Virus record (IMG/VR): IMGVR_UViG_3300033156_000775 | Location: 43,030-107,029 of that record | Strand: one strand, 5' to 3' | Source of the DNA: a virus | DNA length: 64,000 bases | In this document: piece by piece, positions 22,039 to 23,199 of the stretch | Position numbering within the stretch: position 1 is the first letter of the stretch | Layout of the letters: every line of letters starts with the position of its first letter | Made by a program: the position numbers and the translations under genes | The notes under the pieces: generated by a model | The model's input: the letters and a program-made list of their open reading frames with translations, nothing else | Told to the model about the DNA's origin: nothing | Database searches by the model: none

Positions 22039-22170
22039 GTGTGACTTGGACAGGAGCTTACAGGTCTAAAGCGTCACCCTGCTAAGGTGAAGATCTAGGT
22101 TCAAGTCCTAGCATGTCCACCATACTGGGCATGTGGCTGAAGTGGTTTAGAGCTCCTGTCACCTTCACAC
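22039..22170 (+). ncRNA. Y RNA-like hairpin element 2 containing a tRNA-like module
   Basis: Outer stem GTGTGA/TCACAC, inner stem GACAGGAGCT (22049-22058)/AGCTCCTGTC (22151-22160). Inside, in order: anticodon-like arm TCACC-CTGCTAA-GGTGA, T arm CTAGG-TTCAAGT-CCTAG, 3' acceptor strand CATGTCC-ACCA, 4 nt, then GGGCATG (pairs 7/7 with one GT) and a D-arm-like segment ending AGAGC. That is a circularly permuted tRNA closed by the hairpin stem, the layout of bacterial YrlA RNAs. An ordinary cloverleaf (22048-22122) can also be drawn. Confidence 0.7.
22048..22122 (+). tRNA. Possible conventional tRNA cloverleaf (anticodon GCU, Ser) overlapping element 2
   Basis: Acceptor GGACAGG/CATGTCC pairs 6 of 7, D arm GCTT-ACAGGTCTA-AAGC, anticodon arm 5 bp with loop CTGCTAA, T arm 5 bp with TTCAAGT, encoded CCA. 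Against it: only one base joins acceptor and D stem, there is one acceptor mismatch, and a Ser anticodon comes without the long variable arm. Its 5' strand is the same sequence that pairs in the Y RNA-like stem, so the two folds exclude each other. Confidence 0.45.
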
Positions 22171-22180
22171 AGATTAAGTG

Positions 22181-22272
22181 ATGTGCCTAGCTAGGAGCTT
22201 ACAAACTGTGGCTATGGATACACGGTTAAGCTGGTAGGTCCAGCTGGTTAGAAGCTCCTAGCACTTGCACAT
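22181..22272 (+). ncRNA. Y RNA-like hairpin element 3
   Basis: Outer stem ATGTGC/GCACAT, inner stem GCTAGGAGCTT (22190-22200)/AAGCTCCTAGC (22252-22262). It keeps TTACAAACTG after the 5' arm and a D-arm-like segment (GGTCCAGCTGGTTAGAAGC) before the 3' arm, but has no T arm. The apical AGCTGG/CCAGCT can pair. Confidence 0.6.
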
Positions 22273-22279
22273 ATCTAAG

Positions 22280-22363
22280 ATGTCCCATAGACAGGAGCTT
22301 ACAAACTGCCCCAACCAAACTAAAGCTGGCAACTCTAGAAGAAAGCTCCTGTCACCTGGACAT
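22280..22363 (+). ncRNA. Y RNA-like hairpin element 4
   Basis: Outer stem ATGTCC/GGACAT, inner stem GACAGGAGCTT (22290-22300)/AAGCTCCTGTC (22343-22353), 11 bp perfect. TTACAAACTGCC is shared with elements 1, 3 and 6. Apical region AC-rich, no tRNA-like arms recognised. Confidence 0.6.
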
Positions 22364-22392
22364 ATCCTGTAAACACACTGGAGGATGATGAA

Positions 22393-22590
22393 ATGTCTAT
22401 ACTTAGGGTGGTAGTTGGACAGGACATTCAGGAGCTAGAAGTATCTGAGAACATGGCTAGACTGTCAGATGAGGAGATACTTAGCTTTGTAAGGGAAGCT
22501 ACAAATAGACCTGTAGATCCAGAGGACTTTGTAGTGGATAGGACAGAAAACAACAACATAGTGGTTAGGCCTAGAGCTGTCTATGGATAG
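22393..22590 (+). CDS. Small beta-grasp, PRTRC C-like protein ending in -VYG (65 aa)
   Basis: GGAGGATGATGAA precedes the ATG. Pattern: strand (ILRVVVGQDIQELEVSE), helix (LSDEEILSFVREATN), then strands (DFVVDRTENNNIVVRPRAVYG). The layout and the RAV-G tail resemble PRTRC system protein C, a ubiquitin-like protein. It ends in Gly, so it could be a second conjugatable modifier. It lies inside the RNA array and overlaps the next gene by one base (TAGTG). Fold call by eye only. Confidence 0.5.
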   Translation: MSILRVVVGQDIQELEVSENMARLSDEEILSFVREATNRPVDPEDFVVDRTENNNIVVRPRAVYG

Positions 22591-22733
22591 TGACAATATT
22601 GGATGAGATATTATCCATTCCAGATCCTAGTGGCCCTAGAAATTTCATTAAGAGGAATCTCAGGGTAGGAAAGGCTATAGATCAATACGGACATATCTAT
22701 CCTACTTATATATCTAAAGCTATCTATGGATAA
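22590..22733 (+). CDS. Small hypothetical protein ending in -AIYG (47 aa)
   Basis: GTG start overlapping the previous stop. Ends SKAIYG, similar to the RAVYG tail of the preceding protein. Basic middle (RNFIKRNLRVGKAIDQYG). Its shared tail is the only clue to function. Confidence 0.5.
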   Translation: MTILDEILSIPDPSGPRNFIKRNLRVGKAIDQYGHIYPTYISKAIYG

Positions 22734-22743
22734 GGGCTGAACA

Positions 22744-22896
22744 TTGACTGATAATTCTAAACACATATTAACACCGAAGAAACTATTAGAGAAGTTTCTT
22801 AAAGTGTCTCTTCCTGCCTATATAATTGGGCTAGAGATATTCCCTGAATCTGGAGCTATATGGATAATCAAAGAAGATAATATGGATGTCCATTGA
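22744..22896 (+). CDS. Small hypothetical protein (50 aa)
   Basis: TTG start. Reads LTPKKLLEKFLKVSLPAYII then GLEIFPESGAIWIIKEDN: helix followed by a beta hairpin. The stop is directly followed by RNA element 5, so protein genes and RNA elements alternate here. Confidence 0.45.
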   Translation: MTDNSKHILTPKKLLEKFLKVSLPAYIIGLEIFPESGAIWIIKEDNMDVH

Positions 22897-22898
22897 AG

Positions 22899-23027
22899 GT
22901 GTGCTTTATGGATAGGAGCTTACAGCACACAGGGCTACCAGATCCTGTAGTATGGGTTCAAGTCCCGTCATAAGCAGCAGCTTGGCTATGTAGTGCAACT
23001 GGACAAGAGCTCCTATCACCTGCACAC
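22899..23027 (+). ncRNA. Y RNA-like hairpin element 5 with tRNA-like module
   Basis: Outer stem GTGTGC/GCACAC, inner stem GATAGGAGCT (22911-22920)/AGCTCCTATC (23008-23017). Inside: hairpin ACAGG...CCTGT with an 8-10 nt loop, T arm ATGGG-TTCAAGT-CCCGT (22952-22968), acceptor-like hairpin CATAAGC-AGCA-GCT..TATG with a 4-nt bulge, then D-arm-like GTGCAACTGGACAAGAGC. Same permuted order as elements 2 and 6. Confidence 0.65.
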
Positions 23028-23068
23028 AATAGCTTAGCGGGTCCTCACTTTCCTGTCTAAGTTACCTG

Positions 23069-23199
23069 GTGTACCATGATGAGAGCTTACAAACCCAGTG
23101 TCGGTGGGAGAGATGTGGGTTCAAGTCCCACTATCCCTACATGGGATATGGTCTAACTGGCTGAGGACGCTTAATGTATAGCTCTCATCTCCTGTACAC
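23069..23199 (+). ncRNA. Y RNA-like hairpin element 6 with tRNA-like module
   Basis: Outer stem GTGTAC/GTACAC, inner stem GATGAGAGCT (23078-23087)/AGCTCTCATC (23180-23189). Inside: CCCA-GTGTCGG-TGGG (7-nt anticodon-like loop with GUC), T arm GTGGG-TTCAAGT-CCCAC, acceptor hairpin TATCCC-TACAT-GGGATA (6 bp), D arm GTC-TAACTGGCTGAG-GAC. No upstream strand can pair with TATCCC, so here only the permuted fold works. The Ro60-like gene starts 218 bp downstream. Confidence 0.7.

Follow-up and report, generated by a model that had tools for sequence, protein, structure and literature searches.

The Ro60 gene and the hairpin array

The locus analysed here lies in a 64,000-nucleotide (64-kb) stretch of viral DNA, positions 43,030 to 107,029 of the 107-kb IMG/VR record IMGVR_UViG_3300033156_000775 (hereafter the window), in which an array of six hairpins adjoins a gene for a Ro60 protein. 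Three of the hairpins, elements 2, 5 and 6, carry a module with the arms of a transfer RNA (tRNA) in circularly permuted order. A sequence-only reading of the window had described permuted tRNA-like domains within these hairpins and offered mimicry of tRNA or processing into tRNA as alternatives. The domains stood up to analysis and mimicry is now favoured, but that reading had made no use of the adjoining Ro60 gene, which explains the hairpins. Because Ro60 has Y RNAs as its partners and adjoins the array, we regard the six hairpins as probable Y RNAs.

Pfam profiles gave no TROVE match on the open reading frame (ORF) at 23417-24871, and a Protein Data Bank (PDB) search with the single ORF sequence returned chance matches only, so that a profile was required. 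An AlphaFold2 model was built with relatives from viral contigs (mean predicted local distance difference test score 80, predicted template modelling score 0.56), and its top 13 Foldseek matches in the PDB were all Ro60 or Rsr (expectation value, E, 3e-11 to 5e-9), one of them the Ro60 of a Thermus phage. A profile of the seven-sequence family matched human Ro60 (E 4.9e-9). By predicted fold and by profile, the ORF is a Ro60 protein.

The ends of the hairpins encoded beside this gene pair as a conserved basal stem, as in Y RNAs, with a short internal loop between two helices, H1 and H2; the 3' strand of the loop is CACYU-like. Across eight elements, six from the window and two from a sister virus (L002), the stem has 14 base pairs (bp), is 100% paired and contains six compensated pairs, and its covariation (0.454 against 0.146 in shuffles) was matched by 0/500 shuffles. 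All six window hairpins also fold more stably than shuffled sequences (z scores of -2.5 to -4.7). The features of the locus are as follows, R1 being the covariance model described below.

21970-22028, + strand: element 1, plain Y-type hairpin without tRNA-like module (covarying stem; fold z score -4.6); basal stem of H1 at 21970-21975/22023-22028 and H2 at 21981-21988/22009-22016, + strand
22039-22170, + strand: element 2, candidate Y RNA with permuted tRNA-like module (R1 match, ARAGORN rotation test)
22181-22272, + strand: element 3, plain Y-type hairpin (covarying stem, fold z score)
22280-22363, + strand: element 4, plain Y-type hairpin (covarying stem, fold z score)
22393-22590, + strand: small ubiquitin-like-looking ORF with C-terminus RPRAVYG, a conserved neighbour 5' of Ro60
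22899-23027, + strand: element 5, candidate Y RNA with degenerate permuted tRNA-like module (R1 match, acceptor, loop)
23069-23199, + strand: element 6, candidate Y RNA with permuted tRNA-like module (R1 match, rotation test)
23417-24871, + strand: viral Ro60 of 484 amino acids, with TROVE-like repeats and a VWA domain (by predicted fold and profile)

Circularly permuted tRNA-like modules

In elements 2, 5 and 6 the arms follow one another as hairpin, T arm, acceptor with a short closing loop (the cap) and D arm. Mapping of the arms confirmed both this permuted order and the coordinates that the sequence-only reading had given for the three modules:

Element 2, 22074-22090, + strand: anticodon-like arm TCACC-CTGCTAA-GGTGA (5/5 bp, loop of 7 nucleotides (nt), U at loop position 2)
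Element 2, 22095-22111, + strand: T arm CTAGG-TTCAAGT-CCTAG (5/5 bp)
Element 2, 22112-22133, + strand: capped acceptor CATGTCC / ACCA-TACT / GGGCATG, with 3' strand CATGTCC at 22112-22118, cap ACCATACT and 5' strand GGGCATG at 22127-22133
Element 2, 22136-22153, + strand: D arm (3 bp, GG in the loop, U8 before it), its 3' strand overlapping basal-stem helix H2
Element 5, + strand: hairpin 22929-22948, T arm 22952-22968, acceptor 22969-22990, D arm 22993-23010
Element 6, + strand: anticodon-like arm 23093-23109, T arm 23115-23131, acceptor 23132-23148, D arm 23151-23168

All arms of element 2 are canonical, and its cap encodes a discriminator plus CCA, with ACCA placed directly after the acceptor 3' strand. 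Element 6 comes close to this quality, with an anticodon-like stem of 4/5 bp. Element 5 keeps the T arm, U8 and the GG of the D loop, and has an 'anticodon' loop of 10 nt. The complementarity claimed for the acceptor strands holds in element 2 (7/7 bp, one G-U) and in element 6 (6/6 as counted, 6/7 in the tRNA register); in element 5 it is weaker than had been claimed, at 5/7 in the tRNA register. The elbow signatures of the D and T loops (U8, GG and TTCAA) are retained in all three elements.

With the modules closed into circles, ARAGORN called a tRNA at 109 (element 2), 22 (element 5) and 72 (element 6) points of the trimming grid, whereas 0/500 dinucleotide shuffles yielded any tRNA in this rotation control. 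When the T arm was held fixed in the shuffles, the real count was reached by 0, 2 and 0 of 500 for elements 2, 5 and 6, respectively. Circularised elements 1, 3 and 4 gave no ARAGORN tRNA. Elements 2 and 6 thus take the canonical tRNA fold expected of a circularised permuted tRNA gene, and element 5 is degenerate in this respect. A scan of the window for a T arm with a capped acceptor behind it (at least 6/7 bp) gave exactly two sites, elements 2 and 6, compared with 0.07 per shuffled window. The permuted transfer-messenger RNA (tmRNA) of Rfam gave a sub-threshold local match on element 2 (22 bits, threshold 47).

Related RNAs in bacteria and viruses

The Ro60 profile retrieved 80 chromosomal Ro60 loci, mostly cyanobacterial, which contained 73 perfect capped T/acceptor modules 5' of Ro60 and on its strand, with at least one in 51/80 loci; none was found downstream of Ro60, on the opposite strand or in shuffled loci. 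The bacterial RNAs are laid out as basal stem, AGC-NUACA, hairpin, T arm, acceptor 3' strand, cap, acceptor 5' strand, TA, D arm and the closing strand of the basal stem with ACUUG. In 29 aligned copies (alignment A5), the T stem and capped acceptor were 100% paired, and covariation over the whole structure was 0.465 against 0.194 in shuffles (0/500). The covariance model R1, built from these 29 bacterial copies and from no viral sequence, matched element 6 (23069-23198, E 5.9e-10), element 2 (22039-22169, E 5.2e-7) and element 5 (E 2.3e-6) in the window, each over its whole hairpin, and the next window match had E 0.56. Over the whole record, these three were the only matches. As R1 finds exactly elements 6, 2 and 5, these are the same kind of RNA as those beside the bacterial Ro60 genes. 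The two groups share the arm order, the AGC-UACA junction, the ACYU internal loop in the 3' strand, and the ubiquitin-like ORF and Ro60 downstream; they differ in the sequence of the basal stem (GCGC type in bacteria, RUGU type in the window) and in module spacing.

The sequence-only reading had named loss of acceptor or T-arm complementarity in related viruses as a result that would speak against tRNA-like modules. On this point the outcome was mixed: the bacterial relatives keep the T arm and the capped acceptor with strong covariation, and the record of the sister virus L002 lacks the module, as weighed below. The DNA pattern GGAGCTTACAAAC..AGCTCC gave, beyond the sister virus, chance coding matches only in viral contigs (L009-L011). 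Matches to the pattern GAGCTTACA..GGTTCAANTCC were a mixture of chance matches and further Y/tRNA elements (L015 and L017; L018, L019 and L021, analysed in part).

Two readings suit the hairpin between the Y stem and the T arm of elements 2, 5 and 6: anticodon arm or variable arm. On the second, the Y stem may stand where a tRNA has its anticodon stem, as in the plan of the bacterial RNA YrlA. Among the bacterial copies this arm is absent from 4/61; of the 57 loops, 20 have 4 nt, 17 have 7 nt (16 of these 17 with U at position 2) and the others differ in length. Since the loop length varies in this way, decoding is not what is conserved. The proposal that the modules are processed into tRNAs with GCU and GUC anticodons found no support: the arm varies freely in the homologues, element 5 has its 10-nt loop, and element 2, a 'Ser' module by anticodon, has no long variable arm. 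Processing of the modules into decoding tRNAs is therefore unlikely.

Huge phages with Ro60 loci (L003 and L102-L113) show three combinations of a Ro60-type stem with a tRNA: the tRNA is nested in normal order, is permuted, or has its body interrupted. Seven permuted examples break at the variable loop; in one of them (L110b) the segmentation by hand mapped inexactly, and its circle is a tRNA by ARAGORN. In the interrupted form (L003, L102, L103, L104, L105 and L113), an open-acceptor tRNA body is split at the D loop or at the D/anticodon junction by a capped Ro60-type stem, and excision of the insert restored an ARAGORN tRNA at 19/26 sites, compared with 0/260 shuffles and 5/120 other sites. 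In five of these phages (L003, L102, L103, L104 and L113), CCA is encoded in 6/7 nested tRNAs against 0/35 ordinary ones (P 1.3e-6); the open-ended interrupted tRNAs encode it in 0/18. A long variable arm is present in 0/6 nested tRNAs with Leu or Ser anticodons against 10/11 ordinary ones (P 6e-4). The division into nested and ordinary tRNAs was automatic and motif-based, the numbers are low, and common descent links some of the copies. The short nested Leu/Ser-anticodon tRNAs favour mimicry, and the CCA encoded in nested tRNAs means that release of CCA-ended molecules is still allowed for. The idea of a flip of the Ro60 motif between the window and the huge phages was rejected, the ACYU strand being 3' in both. 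In a further virus (L004; Virus Rctr197k, KX853510), about 30 tRNA genes lie directly 5' of a 663-amino-acid Ro60-like ORF annotated 'conserved hypothetical', and group I intron matches (Rfam 36 and 67 bits) were seen near a Ro60-phage tRNA array at positions 1-127 and 932-1119 of L005.

Within the phage collection, the nearest relatives of the window's RadA and DNA polymerase B belong to haloarchaeal tailed viruses (21-28% identity), so that an archaeal host is probable, not certain. A small ORF with the C-terminus RPxAxYG/FG stands 5' of Ro60 in 12/13 viral loci (the survey included L002, L003 and L102-L113) and in 50/80 bacterial loci. The window copy at 22393-22590 has no Pfam match; the product is possibly a ubiquitin-like tag or a sulphur carrier linked to Ro60. 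Elsewhere in the window, 14165-16878 holds a ubiquitin-like cluster of a small glycine-ending ORF, an E2-like protein (UQ_con E 0.0038, motif HPNVNDDGMVCLG), an E1/ThiF protein (5.6e-27) and a JAMM-motif protein; another ThiF protein is encoded at 30540-31211. Judged from translations, intein-like insertions occur at 6408-7811 (terminase-like ORF region) and 60850-63381 (DNA methyltransferase). The palindrome GTAGTCCGGACTAC and its variants recur near 21552, 21672 and 23697 and may be a binding site.

Interpretation and comparison with known systems

Considering these results, we think it likely that the six hairpins are a Y RNA array with which a probable archaeal tailed virus supplies its own downstream Ro60, and that the tips of elements 2, 5 and 6 are tRNA mimics of the YrlA type that serve in docking or gating and are not a source of decoding tRNAs. 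The hairpin RNAs would be transcribed, and their paired 5' and 3' ends would form the stem to which Ro60 is predicted to bind. The tRNA-shaped domain would tether a tRNA-binding or RNA-handling factor to the Ro60 ring or control access to it, and the virus would thereby run an RNA quality-control or RNA-protection particle. The permuted order would follow from the strand entering and leaving the tRNA fold at the Y stem, away from the acceptor end, so that splicing is unnecessary.

Several points weigh against this interpretation. In elements 2 and 5 the D stem overlaps the basal stem, and the two are not fully formable together. The Rfam Y RNA families gave no match to the window hairpins. The L002 record has two plain Y hairpins and no tRNA-like module, so that the tRNA-like domain is dispensable in some relatives. 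The tethering or gating role is carried over by analogy from bacterial Ro60 work (PMC8394870), and the window modules are probably of the YrlA type as judged by published architecture, not by sequence alignment.

The simplest alternative, an ordinary tRNA-Ser gene with chance flanks, starts from the native cloverleaf of element 2 at 22048-22122 (+ strand), which the sequence-only reading had rightly seen as competing with the permuted fold: ARAGORN calls it tRNA-Ser (GCT), Rfam scores it as tRNA at 53.3 bits, and it is the sole tRNA match in the whole record. This reading is scarcely credible, as the full hairpin, whose basal stem draws on the same strand, is more stable than the cloverleaf by 19 kcal/mol (-52.2 vs -32.9 kcal/mol); a class I body bears a Ser anticodon; the 5' strand GACAGGAGCT is a Y stem strand found also in element 4, which has no tRNA; and R1 spans the full hairpin. 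The modules could also be permuted tRNA genes, whose precursors would be cut at the Y stem and within the acceptor cap, giving first circularised and then linear molecules of working tRNA-Ser(GCU) and tRNA-Asp(GUC). The canonical arms and encoded CCA of element 2 and the CCA of the embedded phage tRNAs agree with this, yet we hold it to be highly improbable in view of the degenerate acceptor and loop of element 5, the loops other than 7 nt in 40/57 detectable bacterial arms, the missing class II variable arm of element 2, the short embedded Leu/Ser-anticodon tRNAs of the phages, and H2, which is a continuous helix in which no bulge-helix-bulge splice site was seen. A further reading, in which viral Ro60 carries real tRNAs, is decidedly unlikely: a stem of the Ro60 type would have entered tRNAs at several places (past the end of the acceptor, at the D loop or D/anticodon junction, at the variable loop), some of the embedded tRNAs would be released CCA-ready, and Y RNA and tRNA precursor would be one molecule.

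The tRNA-like domains might instead be decoys that bait tRNA-cutting defence enzymes of the host, with Ro60 holding and protecting them and a viral RNA ligase making repairs. The viral setting, an RNA ligase domain at 17577-18812, the diverse anticodon arms of the phage relatives and the preserved T/D-loop elbow of the window modules would suit such a role. It is nevertheless unlikely, given that the anticodon loop is degenerate in element 5 and in most bacterial chromosomal copies and that bacterial chromosomes commonly carry the RNA, a setting in which no benefit to a virus is expected. As for functionless debris of captured tRNA genes within working Y hairpins, the state of element 5, the module-free sister virus and elements 1, 3 and 4, which lack modules, could be understood in that way; it is very unlikely, however, because the T stem and capped acceptor covary strongly across the 29 bacterial copies and the elbow signatures are kept in all three module copies of one viral array.

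If the likely interpretation of a Y RNA array with tRNA mimics holds, viral Ro60 proteins missed by Pfam, from a probable archaeal virus as well as from huge phages, are now tied to RNA partners; the covariance model recognises such RNAs without the protein. One tRNA-like fold in nested, interrupted and permuted orders amounts to a natural experiment, which argues that the three-dimensional shape of tRNA, not decoding, is selected. The CCA encoded in closed modules makes the choice between mimic and precursor testable.

Ro60 is on record in jumbo phages and Borgs (Borg TROVE; PMC7824862, PMC11208441), and abundant non-coding RNAs of Listeria phage CKA15 have been proposed as Y RNAs (PMC12282133). 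These systems, with the Ro60 of Thermus phage phiLo (PDB 9l5y), share a non-chromosomal Ro60 with the window; unlike it, they are not described, in the portions of those reports available, as having an array of permuted tRNA modules. In a comparison that lay outside the primary YrlA papers, we found no description of an array of YrlA-type RNAs in a virus with a probable archaeal host, of the additional arm, or of huge-phage tRNAs interrupted by or nested in a Ro60-type stem, and these features are apparently new. Permuted tRNA genes and permuted (two-piece) tmRNA likewise place the 3' half first and join the acceptor ends by a short loop able to hold CCA; in contrast to them, the window RNAs have outer ends that pair as a Ro60-type stem, and nothing points to their processing.

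The closest parallel is YrlA, whose two ends pair into a basal stem that is bound by Rsr and whose D, T and acceptor-like arms are mimics of tRNA (PMC8394870). YrlA is also reported to be modified by TruB and Dus. The sequence-only reading had used the capped acceptor of YrlA as a contrast, which was mistaken: the window modules are capped as well, and YrlA itself aligns to tRNA by circular permutation (PMC11472068). Elements 2, 5 and 6 have the D, T and acceptor-like arms at the tip, the loop-closed acceptor and the permuted order of this type, and, like the YrlA of Salmonella (PDB 6CU1), they rise from a two-end basal stem beside a Ro60/Rsr gene. Unlike YrlA, which is described with D, T and acceptor arms only, the window RNAs add a hairpin between the Y stem and the T arm, anticodon-like in elements 2 and 6; the virus that carries them has replication genes of archaeal type, and only three of the six RNAs in its array bear the module.
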